From a virus, in the IMG/VR virus record IMGVR_UViG_3300023174_000629, positions 1-23,913 of that record: a stretch of 23,913 nucleotides of DNA. One strand, 5' to 3'. How positions within the stretch are numbered: the first letter of the stretch is position 1; each line of letters begins with the position of its first letter. The notes under the pieces were generated by a model. The model ran no database searches. It was not told the origin of the DNA and saw nothing but the letters and a program-made list of their open reading frames with translations. A program made the translations under genes and the position numbers. Shown here one piece after another: positions 3,093-23,593 of the stretch.

Positions 3093-4196
3093 TCACTTGC
3101 GGGTGCGGTTGAGGCGCGAAAGTGCGTTTGCATAGACGCTCATTGACTCGCTGATGTTTTCTACAGCAGGAGCATCAGAGCCGTCTAGCGAATCGCCAAC
3201 TTCTTCCGAAAGAACTTCTTCATTGGTCTCGGCGGAATCGCTATCGGTTCCACCAACTCCGAAGTAAGACTCACGGATGATTTCCATCTTGCTGCGGAAA
3301 TCGCTTTCGTCTTCAAACGAAACGCCTTCTGCCAACTTCTTCATCTTTTCCTTTTGAGTCTCGGCTAGACCATCGCATTGCTCGTCTAGGATGTCAGAAC
3401 GGCGAAGTTCGGCAACCTTCTTGCTGATCTCAACATTCTTGAGGATCTGCTCATTGAGTTCGTTTGTGAGAACTTCAACCTTCTCTGCCATCTCGTCAAC
3501 AAGATCAACCTTGGCATTTGGAACTTCAATGTTATGCTCAAGGAAGAGCGAACGAAGACCCTCAATGAACTGCTCGGCAACCTCTGTACGGATGCCCTTC
3601 TCAACAGCGAGGCGGTTCTCGGTCATCCACTCTTCAATGACATAGGAGAGATACGAATCCAACTGTTCGGTCAACTCGTTCTTGATCTGCTCCTGTGCAG
3701 CCATCAAGCGAGTCTCAAACTCGGTCTCAAGTTCTTCTGCAATGTTTTCAATCCGCTCATTTACAGCGGTTTCAAAGATGGTAGAAGCCTTGGTCTTAAA
3801 GTCTTCGCTCAACTCTTCACCATTGAACATTGCGTCCATGTGAACAGCGAGGTCTTCCTTTGCCATGCGCTTCTTGTCAACGGTTGCCTTCTGCTTGGTT
3901 GCAGAGTCGGCATCCTGTGCAGCAGCACCGACATCAACTGGCTCTGGAATGATTGCACCCTTACCGGTGCCGTCCTGATAGAGACCCTTGTACTTGGCAG
4001 TCTCCTTTGGAAGAGTGACATTGCCAGCGGAGGGTTGCTGCATCTGCTTCTTGGCAGTTACATTTGCCTTCTGCTTTGCGGCTGTGTCGCTCTCTTCGGC
4101 AACGGTCTCTTCTTCAGTATCGGTGGTATCTTCGTCATTATCAAGGATTTCCTCTTCTAGGATTTCCTCTACTTCGTTGTTCTTGAATGAGTCCAT
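3093..4196 (-). CDS. gp22: Prohead core scaffold protein gp22
   Basis: A 367-residue, strongly charged and mainly helical protein between the protease and capsid genes, the exact T4 place of gp22, the main internal scaffold that gp21 later degrades. The first 35 residues are very acidic. Residues about 120-290 look like long amphipathic or coiled-coil helices, for example EELETEFETRLMAAQEQIK. T4 gp22 is about 269 residues, so this protein is longer, mostly through its N-terminal third. That third holds two copies of a KQKA-containing segment (near 36-54 and 97-115) flanking KYKGLYQDGTGKGA (68-81), a motif also found in the 404-residue core protein. LAE/G occurs in the C-terminal half as a possible gp21 site. 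AGGAG precedes the ATG. Confidence 0.88.
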   Translation of the reverse strand: MDSFKNNEVEEILEEEILDNDEDTTDTEEETVAEESDTAAKQKANVTAKKQMQQPSAGNVTLPKETAKYKGLYQDGTGKGAIIPEPVDVGAAAQDADSATKQKATVDKKRMAKEDLAVHMDAMFNGEELSEDFKTKASTIFETAVNERIENIAEELETEFETRLMAAQEQIKNELTEQLDSYLSYVIEEWMTENRLAVEKGIRTEVAEQFIEGLRSLFLEHNIEVPNAKVDLVDEMAEKVEVLTNELNEQILKNVEISKKVAELRRSDILDEQCDGLAETQKEKMKKLAEGVSFEDESDFRSKMEIIRESYFGVGGTDSDSAETNEEVLSEEVGDSLDGSDAPAVENISESMSVYANALSRLNRTRK

Positions 4197-4228
4197 GAAC
4201 TCTCTCCTATTTTAGTGAGGGTGCTTGT

Positions 4229-4236
4229 TATTTATG
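4229..4236 (-). promoter_or_regulatory. Late promoter motif CATAAATA for gp22
   Basis: CATAAATA on the minus strand in the gp21-gp22 gap, 32 nt before the gp22 ATG. It is the second-closest of the set to the T4 consensus. Confidence 0.55.
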
Positions 4237-4242
4237 CTTTTC

Positions 4243-4890
4243 TCAAAGTCCGCGCAGGAACTTATTAAAAGCATTCATCTTGGCTTCCTCAAGGTGTCTT
4301 GAGGAGGTTTTACGGATGTCCTTCTTGATTTGCTCAATGTCCTTTTCTACCAAACGACCGCTTTCCCAGATCCATTCCTTGCCTTCCATGATTCCACGGA
4401 CAAAGGCTTCAGGAGCGGATGGGTCGGCTACAATATCAGCGGCTGTGGCTAGTTGGAAGTCATCCTTAACGACATTTACGCCGTTACGCTCTTCCAAGGA
4501 ACCCATTCCACGGCTAGAAACGCCCAATTTGGCTCCCTCGTCAATGAGGTTTTTAACAATCTTGCCATATGGGGTGTCCATGATCTTGGCGCGACCAATG
4601 AAGTTTGAACCTTCTTGGCGAAGATCGGTAATCATATGGCTTACACGCTCAAGGTTGATGGTTGGACCTTCGGGGTGACCTAGTTCTCCAAAGGCTCTCT
4701 TCTGCTTGACGAAATTATCGTTATAGCGGAAGACTTCCTTTTGCAGGGTCTCCATTGGGTATCTACGCTTGTTGCGGTTGGTGATATTCCCTTGAAGGAA
4801 GATGCCTTCAATGAAATAGTTCTTCTGACCAGGAGCAGGCTCCTCTGTCAGGACTTGGATATTCTCGTTGAGATCACAGAACAGTTTCAT
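4243..4890 (-). CDS. gp21: Prohead core protease gp21
   Basis: A 215-residue protein matching the T4 gp21 prohead serine protease, which sits in the core and cleaves scaffold and capsid precursors during maturation. Visible features are NRNKRRYP (38-45), FGELGHPEGP with the likely catalytic His72, a GRAKIMDTPYG segment (99-109), GVSSRGMGS with the likely nucleophile at Ser125 or Ser126 (123-131), and DIVADPSAPEAFV (152-164). The order His, then Ser, then the D-xx-ADPSAP segment is characteristic of the family. The length is close to T4 gp21 (212). GGAGA lies 5 nt before the ATG. The C-terminal tail SRHLEEAKMNAFNKF may be self-processed; this is an inference. Confidence 0.95.
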   Translation of the reverse strand: MKLFCDLNENIQVLTEEPAPGQKNYFIEGIFLQGNITNRNKRRYPMETLQKEVFRYNDNFVKQKRAFGELGHPEGPTINLERVSHMITDLRQEGSNFIGRAKIMDTPYGKIVKNLIDEGAKLGVSSRGMGSLEERNGVNVVKDDFQLATAADIVADPSAPEAFVRGIMEGKEWIWESGRLVEKDIEQIKKDIRKTSSRHLEEAKMNAFNKFLRGL

Positions 4891-4908
4891 TAGGGTCTCC
4901 GTGTTAGA

Positions 4909-5289
4909 TTAGAAGGGAACAAATTCCAAATATGCAGTTACAATTGTTCCAGTAGTAGGAACTTCAACTCTGAATGTTCCATCGGCAGGTGATACTGCGT
5001 TGTTTGGAAGAGTCATTCTTTCAAAGTCAATTGTGCCAGAGTTGTTTCCTGCAAGCATGAATGCAGTTCCGCCTGTTGCGCCATAGCGGAGAAGAACACT
5101 TGCACTTCCGCTGATACCATATACAATTCTAGATAGATTTGCGGATGAATTGGTAATTCGTGCATCTATATTTGCGGCATCAAATGCAGAGTTCGTGATA
5201 CCAAATGAAATAGTTCCACTAGTATCGCCATACACTCCAACAACACAACGATTTCTTGTTTGAACAAGATAAGTTGATGAATTTCCCAT
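4909..5289 (-). CDS. Small unrecognised beta-rich protein between core genes
   Basis: A 126-residue protein, low in Lys and rich in Ser, Thr, Gly and Asn, with alternating hydrophobic stretches typical of a small beta-sandwich virion protein. It has a GTFRVEVPTTGTIVTAYLEF end. No signal peptide or membrane segment is evident. Its ATG overlaps the upstream stop in TAATG, so it is translationally coupled to the 147-residue gene, and gp21 follows after 18 nt. T4 has gp67 and gp68 here, but this composition is unlike those helical core proteins. A capsid-surface decoration protein is possible by position and composition only; I do not recognise a family. Confidence 0.6.
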   Translation of the reverse strand: MGNSSTYLVQTRNRCVVGVYGDTSGTISFGITNSAFDAANIDARITNSSANLSRIVYGISGSASVLLRYGATGGTAFMLAGNNSGTIDFERMTLPNNAVSPADGTFRVEVPTTGTIVTAYLEFVPF

Positions 5290-5732
5290 TATTCAGTCTC
5301 CTTTAATTGATCAAGGCAGAACTGAATTGCTGCCTCATGCGTTTTTCTTGATTCAATCACCATTGTTCGCAGAGCAATTTGATTTTCTTCTGAAAGTGCA
5401 TCATGCGTTGCAATGACTGCTTGTGCGTGTGTAGGTGACAGACGAATGACATCTCCATCCATTAAGCGAATTGTTTTGCCTGTTCCTACTGCGGTTTCCG
5501 CAAGAGTCTTGATGACCTTTGCGGTTGTTTCCATCAACTGATAGTTTTCGTTCAATCTCTTGATGTTGTTGCGAACGACATCAACAGTATCTGCATGGCA
5601 CTCTACGGAAAGTTTGAATTCAGAAGTAGAGGGAACTGTGCGTAGATGAATTCCACCAATGTGACAGCAAAGATAGTTTACGGCTTCGTCTAGCCGTTCT
5701 TTGCTCTTGAACTTGTAAATGATTGTTGGCAT
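5289..5732 (-). CDS. Unrecognised 147-residue protein between portal and protease genes
   Basis: A mixed alpha/beta protein. The N-terminal half (MPTIIYKFKSKERLDEAVNY, then EFKLSVECHADTVDVVRNNI) looks like a small beta-alpha-beta unit, and the second half is largely helical. The ATG directly follows the TAA of the 404-residue gene with no spacer, and AAAGGA lies inside that gene's end. The stop overlaps the next start (TAATG). It lies in the T4 gp67/gp68 slot but shares no pattern I can recognise with either. It is probably expressed with the head genes; a role in head assembly is inferred only from position. Confidence 0.6.
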   Translation of the reverse strand: MPTIIYKFKSKERLDEAVNYLCCHIGGIHLRTVPSTSEFKLSVECHADTVDVVRNNIKRLNENYQLMETTAKVIKTLAETAVGTGKTIRLMDGDVIRLSPTHAQAVIATHDALSEENQIALRTMVIESRKTHEAAIQFCLDQLKETE

Positions 5733-6947
5733 TTATCCTTTGTAGTTCTTCTTGATATATGCAAAGAAACGCTTCTTCTGATCATCAGACTTGAGATCTG
5801 AAGGAGCAGAGATGTTGAACTTCTTCATTGCAGCCTTGAAGAAACGCTCATATTCTGCCTTATCGCCTTCCTTGAAAGTCATGTTCTCTTTATTGAACAT
5901 ATCCTTGAACTCATCAAGAACACCTTCAGTCACGCTCTTTGGCATGAAAGGATGTACAGGCTTGCCGGTGTCGTATGGATCAGGAACAAATGCACCCTTA
6001 CCCGATCCATCGTCATATAGACCGGCATACTTGTTCTTCCCGTTCTTTTGCTCTTCTTGCATTTTCTCCATGCGCTCCATACGAGCCTTGCGATATTGCT
6101 CAAGACGAGACAGAGTATTGCGTACTAAACGAGTACGACCATCTAGATCTACTTTTTCAATTAGATCATTTTGTGTTTCTACTGATTCCTTTTTTGTATC
6201 GGGAAGCATAGGAGTCTTCTTTGTAGTCATCTCAATGTACTGCTTGGACATTTCTACTGCCGATTCCATACCTGGAAAGAAGTTCCATCTTGTGCCATCA
6301 ATATAGACACGAATAGGACGCGAAAGACCAAGACCTACTTGCTTGAGTTCAACAATCTTTCCTTCGTGCTGAAATGTCTTGACAAGGAATTCCTTTTCAA
6401 TTGTTGGATTCAGCCCATCATCGGATTGCTTGCGAATTTCAAATCCACCTGGAACAGGCTTGAGTGATGCAATATCAACGCTGTTGTCCATGACAGCATC
6501 AATCTGCCTTTGCATGGTGTCAAGTTCAGCCTTGCCAAGAACATTTCTCTTAATCTCTACTGCATCAGCCTTTGCTTTGTTTGCAGTCACAAAAGACTTT
6601 GCCTTGGCTAGATCTGCCTTTGCCTTTAGTTCAGCAGCCTTGCCATCAACAACAGGTGCAGCGGCTTCGCTTTTTGTCTTGATTGTCTTTGAAGAAGGTG
6701 GTGGAAGAAGTGTATTGCCATTTTTCTTCTTTACACCAACTACGGGAGGAGCAGTAGGAGCAAGAATGTTTGCTTCGGAAACAGTTTGCTCATTTTCTCC
6801 TAGGATCTCGGTAGCAACAGCCTGACGGCGTGAATCCAATGCAGCATATAGACGGCTAGCAAGTTCTTGTGATAGAACAGACTTGAAAGAAATTGCATCT
6901 CTGTCGTTGACCGAATCTATTGCATTTGAAAGATTGTTGCGTTCCAT
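5733..6947 (-). CDS. Prohead core / internal head protein, gp67-gp68-like
   Basis: A 404-residue protein right after the portal gene, where T4 encodes the core proteins gp67 and gp68. The N-terminus NAIDSVNDRDAISFKSVLSQ followed by LDSRRQAVATEIL has the helical form common in head-core proteins of T4-like phages. A Lys/Ala/Pro-rich low-complexity part covers about residues 60-135, a globular part about 160-245 contains GLSRPIRVYIDGTRWNFFPG, and a basic helix RLEQYRKARMERMEKM spans 281-296. The motif KYAGLYDDGSGKGAFVP (306-322) recurs in gp22. The end, SDDQKKRFFAYIKKNYKG, is a C-terminal form I associate with T4-like structural proteins. VSE/A at 56-59 fits the gp21 cleavage pattern. AAGGAT lies 5 nt before the ATG. 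Confidence 0.7.
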   Translation of the reverse strand: MERNNLSNAIDSVNDRDAISFKSVLSQELASRLYAALDSRRQAVATEILGENEQTVSEANILAPTAPPVVGVKKKNGNTLLPPPSSKTIKTKSEAAAPVVDGKAAELKAKADLAKAKSFVTANKAKADAVEIKRNVLGKAELDTMQRQIDAVMDNSVDIASLKPVPGGFEIRKQSDDGLNPTIEKEFLVKTFQHEGKIVELKQVGLGLSRPIRVYIDGTRWNFFPGMESAVEMSKQYIEMTTKKTPMLPDTKKESVETQNDLIEKVDLDGRTRLVRNTLSRLEQYRKARMERMEKMQEEQKNGKNKYAGLYDDGSGKGAFVPDPYDTGKPVHPFMPKSVTEGVLDEFKDMFNKENMTFKEGDKAEYERFFKAAMKKFNISAPSDLKSDDQKKRFFAYIKKNYKG

Positions 6948-18191: not shown

Positions 18192-19877
18192 TCATCTAAT
18201 TGGTGTGACATTCCAGCCTTTGGCGGTAGCAATACTTCTGTTGCAAAATGGCTCACCCCAATTGCCCGTGATGATGCAAGTTCTTGCTGATGTTAGTTGT
18301 GGTAGATTATCAAATACTTTGTTCAATTCTGATGGTGATAAATTGCAACTGCTCAGTTCCCAGGATCCACCCGAAGACAAAATTGACATTTGAGTTGCTG
18401 CTTGTTTTAAGTTATAGCAACCTGTAAAAGGAGTTCCGACTAATGTTACTGCCCTGAAATCAAACAAAGGAATGGCTTGAAGCGAGGAACAATTGTTAAA
18501 CATAAAATTAACATTAGTTACTTTTGTAGCAATGAACAAAGGAACGGTTTGAAGTGTTTTGCAACCATTAAACATATTGCTAAAATTAGTCCCATTTGCA
18601 GTATTTAACAAAGGAACGGTTTGAAGTGTAGTACAACCATTAAACATACTGCTAAAATCAGTCCCATTTCCAGTATTCAACAAAGGAATGGTTTTAAGTG
18701 AAGTACAACCATTAAACATACCAACAAAACTAGTCCCATTTGCAGTATTCAACAAAGGAATGGTTTGAAGTGAAGGACAACTTAAAAACATACTGCTAAA
18801 ATTAGCCCCAGTTGCCGTATTTAACAAAGGAATGGTTTGAAGTGAAGTACAACTTGCGAACATACTGCCAAAATTAGTCCCATTTGCAGTATTCAACAAA
18901 GGAATGGTTTGAAGTGAAGGACAACTTAAAAACATATTGCTAAAATTAGTCCCACTTGCAGTATTTAACAAAGGAATGGTTTGAAGTGAAGTACAAATGT
19001 TAAACATACTGCTAAAATTAGTCCCATTTGCAGTATTCAACAAAGGAATGGTTTTAAGTGAAACACAATTATAAAACAATAGAGAAAAATTAGTCCCATT
19101 TGCAGTATTCAACAAAGGAATGGTTTGAAGTGAAGTACAATCTCGAAACATACTGTCAAAATTAGTAATATTAGCAGTCCAAGATGTTCCCTTGACAGAC
19201 TTTAAATTTGATGCATTCCGAAATATTTCCCTACCGTTGGTGATTCCGCTATCACCTACCCATTCAAACTGCTGGATTGCTGAAGGGCGGGTTGTCGTAG
19301 CAAGCGTAAATGTATTGATTGTAGATCCTGCAAACCTCATATCCAACCACGGTGAAGCAGTAGCAAAAGTAAAAGTATATCCTGTTTGAGCGTAAACTCC
19401 GTTAAAATTCATGCCGCTAAATGTCGTTCCTGCAACGGTAGGATATGCAGTAATCACGGTTTGGCGGTATCCACTTAAACCAACATCGCCTGTAATAGTT
19501 GTAGATGCAGAGATTCCTTCATACAGGAATTGATATTGTGCAGTTGCTCCTGCGGCATACGATTGAGTGGCACCATTTCCCCAATCAACTGTATATGTGC
19601 AACCTGTTATTGAGAATGCCACAAAATTACTGCTTGCAGAGGGACCAGTAGATCCAGGTTCACCTGCTGTTACTCCTGTAGGATATAGTGCAAGCAATCC
19701 TGCAAACATCTGATCTCCTGCTGTCATGGATGGCAATGGCAACCAGTTTGCAGGACGAATCCATTGAGTTTGATTTGTTCGCAAGTAATTCTTGTTTTCG
19801 GAGATTACACCATAATCATCGGAAAGGTGATTTTGACCAACATAGCCACTATTGGATTTTGAACTGCGAGATTTCAT
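18192..19877 (-). CDS. Repeat adhesin: PKD-like N-terminal part plus DUF285/BspA-type repeats
   Basis: A 561-residue protein. Residues about 35-60 (TQWIRPANWLPLPSMTAGDQ) begin a form seen in phage and bacterial surface proteins. A beta region with CTYTVDWGNGATQSYAAGAT resembles the VDWGDG strand of PKD-like domains. From about residue 239, ten 24-residue units follow, each near NFSSMFNGCTSLQTIPLLNT-ANGT, then a degenerate eleventh; this matches DUF285/BspA-type leucine-rich surface repeats as remembered. The end (LPQLTSARTCIITGNWG) is also LRR-like. The ATG at 19877 overlaps the fibre stop in ATGA, with AGGAG 9 nt before it; a TTG three codons earlier is less likely. Binding of a host surface structure is inferred. 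Confidence 0.78.
   Translation of the reverse strand: MKSRSSKSNSGYVGQNHLSDDYGVISENKNYLRTNQTQWIRPANWLPLPSMTAGDQMFAGLLALYPTGVTAGEPGSTGPSASSNFVAFSITGCTYTVDWGNGATQSYAAGATAQYQFLYEGISASTTITGDVGLSGYRQTVITAYPTVAGTTFSGMNFNGVYAQTGYTFTFATASPWLDMRFAGSTINTFTLATTTRPSAIQQFEWVGDSGITNGREIFRNASNLKSVKGTSWTANITNFDSMFRDCTSLQTIPLLNTANGTNFSLLFYNCVSLKTIPLLNTANGTNFSSMFNICTSLQTIPLLNTASGTNFSNMFLSCPSLQTIPLLNTANGTNFGSMFASCTSLQTIPLLNTATGANFSSMFLSCPSLQTIPLLNTANGTSFVGMFNGCTSLKTIPLLNTGNGTDFSSMFNGCTTLQTVPLLNTANGTNFSNMFNGCKTLQTVPLFIATKVTNVNFMFNNCSSLQAIPLFDFRAVTLVGTPFTGCYNLKQAATQMSILSSGGSWELSSCNLSPSELNKVFDNLPQLTSARTCIITGNWGEPFCNRSIATAKGWNVTPIR
18444..19163 (-). repeat. Ten tandem 72-bp units encoding the DUF285-type repeats
   Basis: Ten in-frame units of exactly 72 bp (24 codons), each with MF, then C, then SL and IPLLNT at fixed spacing. 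The unit core is almost unchanged in DNA for units 1-9 and decays in unit 10 and in a partial unit 11 just beyond, the usual sign of recent expansion from the middle. Confidence 0.85.
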
Positions 19878-22800
19878 AGGAACCAACTCCTAGCATTTGA
19901 AGTCATGTTCACATTGTTTTGAATGATGTTTCCACCTGTTACTGTGAGATTTCCGCCTGAAATATTCAATGAAGTCAGAACACCCAAAGAAGTGATATTG
20001 GGTTGTGCTGCGGTGGACAGAGTTCCTGAGACTGTACCTGCAAAAGTAGCACCATTGGAGACATAGAGGTGATTGGTAGTCAATCCTGCGCTAAATGTAC
20101 CTAGACCCGTATAAACTGCGGTACTTGCAAATGTAGCACCATTAGTTACATAAAGGTGATTAGAGGTAATACCTGCATTGAATGTACCAAGACCGGTATG
20201 GACTGATGTGCTAGCAAAAGTTACACCATTTGAAACATACAGATGATTTGAAGTAATACCACCACTAGCGGTTACTAGTCCTGAAGAACTCAAGGAAGTT
20301 AGAGTTCCAACTGAAGTAATATTAGGTTGTGCTACGGTATTAAGTGTACCGGTGATACCACCAGCCGAACTAATACCACCGGAACCAACATCAAGTCTTG
20401 TCAAAGTTCCAACTGAAGTGATGTTTGGTTGTGCTATGGTACTAAGTGTTGCCGATACAGTACCGGCAAAAGTAGCACCATTAGAGACATGGAGGTGAGT
20501 TGAGGTAATACCGGCATTGAAAGTACCTAGACCCGTATAAACTGCGGTACTTGCAAATGTAGCACCATTAGTTACATAAAGGTGATTGGATGTAATACCT
20601 GCATTAAAAGTACCGAGACCAGTATGGACCGATGTGCTAGCAAAAGTTACACCATTGGAAACATATAAGTGATTGGATGTAATACCACCACTAGCAGTTA
20701 CTAGTCCTGAAGAACTTAAGGAAGTCAAAGTTCCGACTGAAGTGATGTTAGTTTGTGCTGCTGTTGCTAGGGTTCCGGAGATCGTACCGGCAAATGTTGC
20801 TCCGTTAGAAACATATAGATGGTTGGAAGTAATACCACCACTTGCAGTCACTAGTCCTGAAGAACTCAAGGAAGTCAAAGTTCCGACTGAAGTGATATTA
20901 GTTTGTGTTGCTGTTGCTAAGGTTCCTGAAATGGTTCCTGCAAATGTAGCACCATTAGAGACATAGAGATGTGTAGATGTGATGCCTGCGTTGAAAGTAC
21001 CGAGACCAGTATAGACTGATGTGCTGGCAAAAGTTACACCATTGGAGACATAAAGGTGATTTGAAGTGATGCCACCACTTGCAGTCACTAGTCCTGAAGA
21101 ACTCAAGGAAGTCAAAGTTCCGACTGAGGTAATATTGGTCTGTGCTGCTGTTGCTAGGGTTCCGGAGATCGTACCGGCAAATGTTGCTCCGTTAGAAACA
21201 TACAAGTGATTGGTAGTCAATCCTGCACTAAATGTACCTAGTCCTGAAGAACTCAAAGAAGTTAGAGTTCCAACTGAGGTAATATTGGTCTGTGCTGCTG
21301 TTGCTAGGGTTCCTGAAATGGTTCCTGCAAATGTAGCACCATTAGTTACATAGAGATGGTTGGTGGTTAATCCTGCATTGAATGTTCCTAGACCCGTATG
21401 AACTGATGTACTTGCAAAAGTTACACCATTTGAAACATACAAGTGATTGGTAGTCAATCCTGCACTAAATGTACCTAGACCTGAAGAACTCAAGGAAGTC
21501 AAAGTTCCGACTGAAGTGATGTTATTTTGTGCTGCTGTTGCTAGGGTTCCGGAGATCGTACCGGCAAATGTTGCTCCGTTAGAGACATAAAGGTGATTGG
21601 AAGTAATACCACCACTTGCAGTCACTAGTCCTGAAGAACTCAAGGAAGTCAAAGTTCCGACTGAAGTGATATTAGTTTGAGCAGCGGTATTAAGTGTCGC
21701 TGATATGCTTCCAGCAAAGGTAGCACCATTAGAGACATAGAGATGGTTGGAAGTAATACCACCATTGAAAGTACCGAGACCAGTATAGACTGATGTGCTG
21801 GCAAATGTAGCACCATTTGAGACATAAAGGTGATTTGAAGTGATGCCACCACTTGCAGTCACTAGTCCTGAAGAACTCAAAGAAGTTAGAGTTCCAACTG
21901 AGGTAATATTGGTCTGTGCTGCTGTCGCTAGGGTTCCTGAAATCGTACCGGCAAATGTAGCACCATTTGAGACATATAAGTGATTTGAAGTAATACCACC
22001 ACTTGCAGTCACTAGTCCTGAAGAACTCAAGGAAGTCAAAGTTCCGACTGAAGTAATATTAGTTTGAGCAGCAGTCGCTAGGGTTCCTGAAATCGTACCG
22101 GCAAATGTAGCACCATTAGAGACATAGAGATGGTTGGAAGTAATACCACCACTTGCAGTCACTAGTCCTGAAGAACTTAAGGAAGTCAAAGTTCCGACTG
22201 AGGTAATGTTATTTTGTGCTGCTGTTGCTAGGGTTCCGGAGATCGTACCGGCAAAGGTAGCACCATTTGAAACATAGAGATGTGTAGATGTGATGCCTGC
22301 GTTGAAAGTACCTAGACCTGTATGTACTGATGTGCTGGCAAAAGTTACACCATTGGAGACATATAAGTGATTAGAGGTAATACCACCACTTGCAGTCACT
22401 AGTCCTGAAGAACTCAAGGAAGTCAAAGTTCCGACTGAAGTGATATTGGGTTGGGCTGCTGTATTGAGTGTTCCTGATACGGTACCAGCAAAGGTAACAC
22501 CATTTGAAACATATAGATGGTTGGTGGTTAATCCTGCATTGAATGTACCCAGACCAGATGCGGCAAGAGAAGTCAAAGTACCAACTGAGGTAATATTGGT
22601 CTGTGCTGCTGTTGCCAATGTACCCGATATTGTTCCTGCAAATGTGGCACCATTGGAGACATAGAGATGTGTAGAAGTGATACCGGCATTGAATGTTCCA
22701 AGACCCGTATGAACTGATGTACTTGCAAAAGTTACACCATTGGAGACATAAAGATGATTTGTGGTCAATCCTGCGCTAAATGTACCTAGACCCGATGCAG

Positions 22801-23593
22801 TTAGAGAAGTCAAAGTACCAACCGAAGTGATACTATTTTGTGTTGCAGTTGTCAGAGTTCCTGAAATTGTACCGGCAGAGATTGTACCTGCAAATGTCGC
22901 TCCGTTAGAGACATACAGGTGATTTGTGGTCAATCCTGCGTTAAATGTACCTAGACCAGATGCGGTCAAAGAAGTCAAAGTACCAACAGATGTAATGGTA
23001 TTTTGCGTTGCAGTTGCTAAAGTACCAGAAATTGTACCCGCAGAAATTGTTCCTGCAAATGTAGCACCGTTTGAAACATGAAGGTGAGTTGTGGTCAACC
23101 CTGCGTTCATAGTCTGTAGACCCAAGAATGTATTGGATCCCGTGGTTGCTATACTTACAACTGCACCTGTTGTTCCATTCACACTCTTGACATAATTGCT
23201 AGTCAGACCTACTGCACCCGCAGCAGATACAAGGAATTCATTTCCAAACGATGCAACACCTGTAACAGTTGCAGATGCTAGAGGGACTGCAAAAGATACA
23301 GCACCAGTAGAACCATTGAAACTCTTGACATAATTTGCAGTAAGGCTTACTGCACCCGCAGCAGATACAAGGAATTCATTTCCAAACGATGCAACACCGG
23401 TTTGGGATGCAGATGCAAGATATACCGTAGCGGTTCCTGGTGGTCCTTGCGCTCCTGTTGGACCTGTTGGACCTACTAGTCCTTGAATGCCTTGTGGTCC
23501 TTGGACACCTTGCTGTCCCTGTAGGATAGTAGATGCCCCTCCAACCGAAGGAGTACTTACGGTTATGTTTGCAATGTTTGGATTGTTTGGCAT
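19874..23593 (-). CDS. Giant modular tail fibre-like protein
   Basis: A 1239-residue protein very rich in Ser, Thr, Gly, Ala and Asn. Residues 26-53 are collagen-like, with Gly at every third place. Residues about 57-101 and 103-147 are a tandem pair (GVASFGNEFLVSAAGAV in both). From about 164 to 1207 run 24 repeats built on a HLYVSNG core: a long form of about 50 residues, with GTLATAAQ and NITSVGTLTSL, and a short form of 29. The protein ends NISGGNLTVTGGN, then a 15-20 residue tail with no recognisable receptor-binding or chaperone domain. Similar NITSVGTLTSL repeats occur in fibre-like proteins of marine phages as remembered. The start overlaps the previous stop (TAATG). It is probably a long trimeric beta shaft. 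Confidence 0.8.
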   Translation of the reverse strand: MPNNPNIANITVSTPSVGGASTILQGQQGVQGPQGIQGLVGPTGPTGAQGPPGTATVYLASASQTGVASFGNEFLVSAAGAVSLTANYVKSFNGSTGAVSFAVPLASATVTGVASFGNEFLVSAAGAVGLTSNYVKSVNGTTGAVVSIATTGSNTFLGLQTMNAGLTTTHLHVSNGATFAGTISAGTISGTLATATQNTITSVGTLTSLTASGLGTFNAGLTTNHLYVSNGATFAGTISAGTISGTLTTATQNSITSVGTLTSLTASGLGTFSAGLTTNHLYVSNGVTFASTSVHTGLGTFNAGITSTHLYVSNGATFAGTISGTLATAAQTNITSVGTLTSLAASGLGTFNAGLTTNHLYVSNGVTFAGTVSGTLNTAAQPNITSVGTLTSLSSSGLVTASGGITSNHLYVSNGVTFASTSVHTGLGTFNAGITSTHLYVSNGATFAGTISGTLATAAQNNITSVGTLTSLSSSGLVTASGGITSNHLYVSNGATFAGTISGTLATAAQTNITSVGTLTSLSSSGLVTASGGITSNHLYVSNGATFAGTISGTLATAAQTNITSVGTLTSLSSSGLVTASGGITSNHLYVSNGATFASTSVYTGLGTFNGGITSNHLYVSNGATFAGSISATLNTAAQTNITSVGTLTSLSSSGLVTASGGITSNHLYVSNGATFAGTISGTLATAAQNNITSVGTLTSLSSSGLGTFSAGLTTNHLYVSNGVTFASTSVHTGLGTFNAGLTTNHLYVTNGATFAGTISGTLATAAQTNITSVGTLTSLSSSGLGTFSAGLTTNHLYVSNGATFAGTISGTLATAAQTNITSVGTLTSLSSSGLVTASGGITSNHLYVSNGVTFASTSVYTGLGTFNAGITSTHLYVSNGATFAGTISGTLATATQTNITSVGTLTSLSSSGLVTASGGITSNHLYVSNGATFAGTISGTLATAAQTNITSVGTLTSLSSSGLVTASGGITSNHLYVSNGVTFASTSVHTGLGTFNAGITSNHLYVTNGATFASTAVYTGLGTFNAGITSTHLHVSNGATFAGTVSATLSTIAQPNITSVGTLTRLDVGSGGISSAGGITGTLNTVAQPNITSVGTLTSLSSSGLVTASGGITSNHLYVSNGVTFASTSVHTGLGTFNAGITSNHLYVTNGATFASTAVYTGLGTFSAGLTTNHLYVSNGATFAGTVSGTLSTAAQPNITSLGVLTSLNISGGNLTVTGGNIIQNNVNMTSNARSWFL
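19887..19891 (-). promoter_or_regulatory. Ribosome binding site for the repeat adhesin
   Basis: AGGAG on the minus strand inside the fibre gene's last codons, 9 nt before the ATG at 19877 that overlaps the fibre stop. Confidence 0.55.
19970..23100 (-). repeat. 24 fibre-shaft modules, long (~150 bp) and short (87 bp)
   Basis: In reading order the modules are L L S L L S L L L S L L S L L S L L S S L S S L (15 long, 9 short). The short form equals the long one minus 21 residues that include NITSVGTLTSL. The first two long units carry five extra residues (TISAG). Unit 21 carries an added SVGTLTRLDVGSGG-type half unit. Many modules are near-identical in DNA. End coordinates are approximate. Confidence 0.85.
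23153..23425 (-). repeat. Tandem pair of ~46-codon units in the fibre N-terminal part
   Basis: Two copies of a unit containing LASA-x-x-TGVASFGNEFLVS and ending in YVKS-NG-TGAV. The DNA for ACCAGGAATTC-like core blocks is identical over long stretches in both copies. Probably a spacer between the collagen-like stretch and the shaft. Confidence 0.75.
23435..23518 (-). other. Collagen-like Gly-X-Y segment
   Basis: Residues 26-53 of the fibre have Gly at ten successive third positions, with Pro at several X or Y places (GPTGPTGAQGPPG). In phage fibres such segments form trimeric collagen-type helices, which supports a trimeric fibre. Confidence 0.85.

Follow-up and report, generated by a model that had tools for sequence, protein, structure and literature searches.

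A short conserved peptide shared by the gp22-like scaffold and a second head-core protein in a clade of uncultivated T4-like phages

Composition of the head gene locus

We analyzed a DNA stretch of 23,913 bp (positions 1 to 23,913 of the IMG/VR virus record IMGVR_UViG_3300023174_000629), here referred to as the window. It carries a group of T4-like head genes, and two of the encoded proteins, the gp22-like head scaffold and a second core protein, share a peptide of 23 residues which is the subject of this work and is here named the motif. The gp22 gene is located between those of gp21 and gp23, as in the T4 order. The gene of the second core protein follows directly after that of gp20 and precedes that of gp21, which is the place of the T4 genes 67 and 68. 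The neighbouring head genes were assigned with expectation values (E) of 4.5e-170 for gp20 and 5.6e-151 for gp23 (gp21: Table 1).

The motif is located at amino acids (aa) 68-90 of gp22 and aa 306-328 of the second core protein, with 15 of the 23 residues identical (BLASTP of the whole proteins, E = 6e-9). An initial annotation made from the sequence had described it in both proteins, and translation reproduced its positions exactly. The surroundings had been called otherwise unrelated, and the motif was indeed the sole similarity between the two proteins; the remaining BLASTP segments had E ≥ 0.25 and no further similarity of weight was found. Furthermore, gp22 as a query matched the 23,913-base record in two places only, the two motif copies. 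Their DNA, which had been noted as partly matching, agreed at 46 of 69 bases. The same codon was used at 8 of the 15 shared residues compared to 6.8 expected from the codon usage of the window. The partial match of the DNA thus results from the match of the proteins and gives no sign of recent DNA copying. A weak similarity between gp20 and gp22 in the window (E = 0.021 among 21 pairs) was taken as chance.

Table 1. Features of the window related to the two motif-bearing proteins
Feature	Position	Strand	Evidence and remarks
gp22-like head scaffold protein, 367 aa	3093..4196	(-)	Pfam T4_CASP 8.5e-73; phrog_237 5.5e-81
Helical repeat downstream of motif in gp22, aa 97-111	3864..3908	(-)	Repeat test; beginning of helix predicted at 98-125
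Motif copy 1, gp22 aa 68-90	3927..3995	(-)	BLASTP match; clade-wide conservation
Helical repeat upstream of motif in gp22, aa 36-52	4041..4091	(-)	Resembles aa 97-111; 0/300 shuffles as good (row L053)
Predicted gp21 cleavage site V-A-E in gp22, aa 32-34	4095..4103	(-)	Prediction; 33 residues before motif; aligned [ILV]xE in 32/32 rows
gp21-like prohead protease, presumed cutter of both proteins	4243..4890	(-)	Peptidase_S77 2.5e-35
Second core protein, 404 aa (gp67-like N-terminus, beta domain, helix, motif, C-terminal module)	5733..6947	(-)	Between gp20 and gp21
C-terminal helical module of second core protein, aa 360-404	5736..5870	(-)	AlphaFold2 confidence (pLDDT) mostly 72-88; conserved in relatives; duplicated in L096, L104
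Motif copy 2, second core protein aa 306-328	5964..6032	(-)	BLASTP match; conserved
Predicted gp21 cleavage site L-I-E in second core protein, aa 262-264	6156..6164	(-)	Prediction; 41 residues before motif (row L054)
gp67-like N-terminal segment of second core protein, aa 9-58	6774..6923	(-)	phrog_1064 E = 0.021

Conservation and predicted structure of the motif

Among 32 gp22 proteins the mean column identity was 0.80 within the motif core (19 residues), compared to 0.39 before it, 0.42 after it and 0.60 in the scaffold domain. For ten second proteins it was 0.72 in the motif and 0.62 overall. The consensus was K[YF]xGLY[KQD]DG[TS]G[KR]GA[IVF][IV]PxP, with Tyr6, Asp8, Gly9, Gly11, Gly13 and Pro19 being invariant in both protein classes (35 distinct gp22 and 32 distinct second-protein stretches). 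Each class kept its own signature within the motif (T versus S, K/Q versus D), and neither co-variation nor homogenisation of the two copies within genomes was detected (P = 0.10).

These data bear on the possibility that the similarity is a passive leftover of a gene duplication or conversion without any function. A single move by recombination is conceivable, and the codon match is at about chance level. However, the long-term conservation in both proteins amid variable flanks, the copy-specific signatures and the lack of homogenisation make such an origin very improbable.

The motif is not part of a larger known domain. The Pfam domain T4_CASP, which confirmed the initial assignment as gp22-like, covers only the scaffold domain (aa 117-358; 245.4 bits, cut-off 27) and leaves the motif outside; a motif profile compared with solved structures gave nothing better than E = 0.34. 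A known domain was therefore ruled out. Readings as EF-hand and Walker-A were dropped by eye since the needed residues are missing.

AlphaFold2 placed a low-confidence coil at the motif in both proteins (pLDDT about 50 and 41-51), which is consistent with a linear motif, although the underlying alignments were shallow. Judged from these models and the alignment, the motif forms a conserved island in a variable, probably disordered tail.

In some proteins the motif is flanked by helical repeats. Only a part of them reached significance: no more than 3 of 300 shuffles were as good for 15 of 49 gp22 rows and for 8 of 37 second-protein rows. For the second core protein of the window they were not significant (89/300 shuffles as good).

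Distribution of the two motif copies

Searches of viral contigs starting from gp22 and from the second protein, with patterns that did not contain the motif, yielded 36 and 18 loci, respectively (single loci, also as rows of alignments, are numbered with L). The motif was present in all close gp22 relatives whose N-terminus was present and absent in the distant ones (≤43% identity). A search with the motif profile was added, for which the best 80 of 118 places were kept. Because the motif alone drew the profiles of both proteins, open reading frames (ORFs) were classified with the motif masked. All 182 motif-bearing ORFs (redundant) were then either gp22 (104) or second proteins (78), and none belonged to another class.

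The set comprised 70 distinct gp22 proteins: 43 motif-bearing ones with portal and protease on the same locus, 12 motif-bearing ones on incomplete loci and 15 without the motif, among them L015, which is cut off before the motif position. On the complete loci both copies were found in 38 of 43 cases and the gp22 copy alone in 5; on incomplete loci the second copy was seen in 3 of 12. A tree of gp22 (66 rows) united the motif-bearing rows and the cut-off row L015 in one clade (support 100/98). Since the motif was absent from the T4-like relatives searched outside this clade, it appears to be a feature of one clade of uncultivated T4-like phages and not T4-wide. The expectation of the initial annotation that relatives of both proteins would carry the motif thus holds inside the clade only. 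The two copies occur together in each of the main subclades, both of them, and the pair is therefore probably ancestral and older than the diversification of the clade.

Scans of nine whole records revealed exactly two copies in five (L018 with 177 kb, L017, L014, L016 and L047, one extra overlap with E = 8 being ignored in the latter), one copy in L010, where the contig begins shortly before gp22, and none in three motif-less relatives. Two copies were present in 8 of 13 further records, and one copy in the 5 that lack the second copy. Two samples were not selected by the motif. It was found in L001 only in the gp21-based sample (80 loci, gp22 detected in 72) and in L219 only in the scaffold-domain-based sample (73 new loci); each sample held the best 80 of at least 600 stretches, and both contigs were already known. 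Among 50,697 records of isolate phages no match to a 27- or 34-aa motif query was found at E ≤ 10, the sensitivity of such short queries being limited. In bacterial and archaeal genome contigs 90 stretches matched a pattern and none was confirmed.

No genome carried the second copy without the gp22 copy; only the second copy was lost. It was absent in L121, L124-L126, L131/L132, L110/L113 and L137, L131 being a fragment with the same sequence as L132 over the stretch that was compared. As the gp22 copy is kept in the absence of the second one, the second protein is unlikely to be its sole partner. Contacts between gp22 tails would still be possible in these phages. Together with the near identity of the peptide in both proteins this would suit a self-associating motif which cross-links gp22 tails to one another as well as to the second protein. 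The motif, however, is rich in glycine and modelled as a low-confidence coil in both proteins, and we regard self-association as quite unlikely.

Predicted cleavage sites and modular second proteins

A pattern resembling the gp21 cleavage site was found upstream of the motif in both protein classes. T4 gp21 is described to cut after L/I-x-E (PMC9026906). We used [ILV]xE as the site pattern. All 35 distinct second proteins had [ILV]-x-E at a distance of 30-42 residues upstream of the motif, and in 14 of these the leader, counted from the closest preceding Met up to the site, measured 8 residues. In gp22 an aligned [ILV]-x-E was located 31-56 residues upstream in 32 of 32 rows (33-34 in the subclade of the window). 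The outer two residues were constant and the middle one variable, as for a protease site; V, which is outside the L/I of T4, was common. In the second proteins the helix before the motif was preceded by the pattern in 36 of 36 first-copy cases against a background of 505 in 22,237 positions, in a scan that also allowed M. Six more matches to the helix pattern without a site comprised five second helix copies and one chance match. The order of site, helix and motif was the same in both proteins. The patterns are putative gp21 cleavage sites, here listed as predictions.

The proximity of motif and site could also mean that the motif marks gp21 substrates by docking on the prohead protease and bringing [I/L/V]-x-E into its active centre. 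In T4 both protein classes are gp21 substrates (PMC9026906), and the conserved site upstream of the motif would fit. However, of the five motif-less second proteins that were read, L121, L125, L132, L110 and L137 all retain the helix and the first four also the site pattern. The motif is therefore separable from the site, which weakens this explanation. In addition, the whole-record scans show no third motif protein, hence presumed further substrates such as gp23 would lack the motif. Altogether docking on the protease seems unlikely to us.

Alternatively, the motif segments might be precursors of small peptides retained in the mature head. The mature T4 head holds fragments of gp22 (2.5 kDa) and gp67 (3.9 kDa) according to Table 1 of PMC9026906, and the same two protein classes carry the motif beside a predicted cleavage site here. 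On the other hand, T4 gp22, gp67, gp68 and gp21 had no common peptide in the same kind of comparison, no conserved site was detected just downstream of the motif, and the second copy was lost three times. We consider a retained peptide improbable.

Some second proteins are considerably extended. In L095, L107, L109, L119, L120 and L134 two to four I-Q/H-E sites were found, 94-112 residues apart. Each of them opens a new module of approximately 100 residues, and the module with the motif is always the last one. One module type was present twice in L109, and among these six loci module types were swapped or duplicated between phages. This arrangement suggests a constant carrier with variable upstream cargo and is reminiscent of a polyprotein from which a protease releases internal head proteins. 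In a wider interpretation, the product of the second gene would be a modular carrier of cargo. Its constant C-terminal part would copy the docking peptide of the scaffold so that the entire chain is built into the core, and gp21 would cut the I-Q-E-type sites and release interchangeable modules of about 100 residues in the head, as a polyprotein version of the T4 internal proteins. We put this forward tentatively, as a possible but rather doubtful extension.

The second core protein and other genes of the window

The second core protein had been annotated as gp67/68-like, an assignment that is correct in part. Its first ~50 of 404 aa matched the T4 gp67 family phrog_1064 weakly (Table 1), and a match at E ≤ 0.1 was obtained for 10 of 13 members of the second-protein alignment (best 3.4e-4); T4 gp67 itself as control reached 1.7e-30. 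The gp68 family phrog_1049 was not matched by the second core protein, while T4 gp68 matches it at 1.7e-71. For the remaining part no clear family or fold match was found, and Foldseek gave no match at E ≤ 0.001 in the PDB or viral libraries. The duplicated C-terminal modules of L096 and L104 are arranged in tandem. Weak matches to a segment resembling this C-terminal part were obtained in proteins of Vibrio and Tenacibaculum phages, whose annotation is DNA ligase 1 or hypothetical protein.

Two small proteins (4909-5289 and 5289-5732, minus strand) lie between the second core protein and gp21. No family was assigned to them; a PHROG search gave no match at E ≤ 0.1 for the former and at E ≤ 0.01 for the latter. 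Also on the minus strand, a 1239-aa protein (19874-23593) has a collagen-like start followed by many near-identical repeats and is probably a fibre. A 564-aa protein (18192-19886) consists in part of repeated 'MFNGCTSLKTIPLLNT'-type units, which presumably resemble BspA-like leucine-rich repeats.

A putative docking peptide

What is known of the selection of non-scaffold proteins for the T4 prohead core comes mostly from one leader of ~10 residues. We propose that the motif serves in both proteins as a short linear docking peptide, through which the second protein joins the core of the scaffold, and we give this about an even chance of being correct. The gp22 copy would be presented in a flexible N-terminal tail ahead of the helical scaffold rod, and the other copy between helices in the constant C-terminal carrier part of the second protein. 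Both copies would bind one receptor surface inside the growing prohead, and the second protein would thereby enter the core via the docking signal of the scaffold itself. Cleavage by the prohead protease gp21 at the conserved [I/L/V]-x-E that precedes each motif would follow and free the upstream part, namely the gp67-like domain in the window and the modules of ~100 aa in long relatives. The sequences themselves establish the common motif, its conservation and confinement to two proteins, the site pattern upstream and the loss of the second copy alone; that the motif binds a partner, that such binding would target the protein, and that gp21 acts at the predicted sites is our inference.

As receptor, a component of the core or shell that is maintained for the sake of gp22 is more likely than the second protein. 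Such a receptor would agree with the lack of genomes that have the second copy alone. A related mode of entry has been described for T4, where internal proteins are purified together with gp22 and a short targeting peptide directs them to the core (PMC9026906, PMC9958956, PMC3012670, PMC7411985).

Several observations weigh against a docking peptide. The absence of the second copy requires three changes on the gp22 tree, and having been lost three times this copy is dispensable in some lineages. In contrast to the T4 targeting sequence, which is cut away, the motif lies downstream of the predicted cut. The helices preceding it differ between gp22 and the second protein. In the glutamate-rich gp22 tail 138 of 556 glutamates have I/L/V at position -2, so that single sites there are weak evidence apart from the alignment. 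Finally, the AlphaFold2 models were of low confidence overall (means 59.5 and 67.3) and built on shallow alignments.

The initial annotation had suggested a common binding peptide for the capsid, portal or protease, or a core-targeting tag, which is supported in part. The conservation, the restriction to two proteins, the probable age of the pair and its upkeep at the protein level would fit such a role. The second copy is dispensable, and the motif was absent from the T4-like relatives searched outside the clade. If a docking peptide is indeed present, it would represent a second, scaffold-mimicking way into the prohead core and predict one receptor for both proteins. It would also provide a small peptide for finding this receptor and point to a gene of uncultivated phages with possibly variable cargo. 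No earlier report of the motif was found in the open literature collection to which our search was limited.

Comparison with known systems

The locus agrees with T4 in the two protein classes and, apart from the extra small genes, in the gene order 20-67-68-21-22-23. T4 gp22 and gp67 are both gp21 substrates leaving a fragment in the mature head (PMC9026906). T4 gp22 differs in having no N-terminal tail, its residue 1 aligning at position 103 of phrog_237, and the T4 proteins share no common peptide.

In pelagiphage- and cyanophage-like gp22 a conserved short peptide is likewise located in a variable tail before the scaffold domain (23 distinct stretches from loci among L140-L217 and from Mosig, L052). 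However, it has another sequence and occurs in gp22 only. A profile comparison with the motif gave an hhalign probability of 0.3%, and 29 of 2000 permutations were as good. All 18 further matches of this peptide were in gp22; of four apparent non-gp22 matches, three resemble pieces of gp22 truncated at the ends of contigs, and the fourth is weak and antisense. A peptide shared between gp22 and ORFs from portal to protease was detected for 24 of the 40 motif-bearing gp22 tested and for none of the 97 without the motif, in a test that misses some true pairs. A further glycine-rich gp22 tail peptide was seen in L220-L222, L224, L229 and L268, its end being P-x-P-V-like in some of them. It seems that several groups of T4-like phages have a gp22 tail peptide of their own.

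The closest parallel in function would be the T4 capsid-targeting sequence (CTS) of the internal proteins IPI-IPIII and Alt. It, too, is a short stretch believed to bring a protein other than the scaffold into the core of the prohead, and a gp21-type cleavage site lies close to it. The CTS is N-terminal, ~10 residues long, cut off, and reported as not conserved in other core proteins (PMC9958956, PMC9026906). The motif, in contrast, is internal, ~23 residues long and common to the scaffold itself. It is not located at the N-terminus and by prediction not part of the segment that gp21 would remove, the predicted site being upstream of it in all 35 second proteins. Although it may work like a CTS, it lacks these two defining features, and we therefore regard the proposed docking peptide as analogous to the T4 CTS rather than as a member of it.

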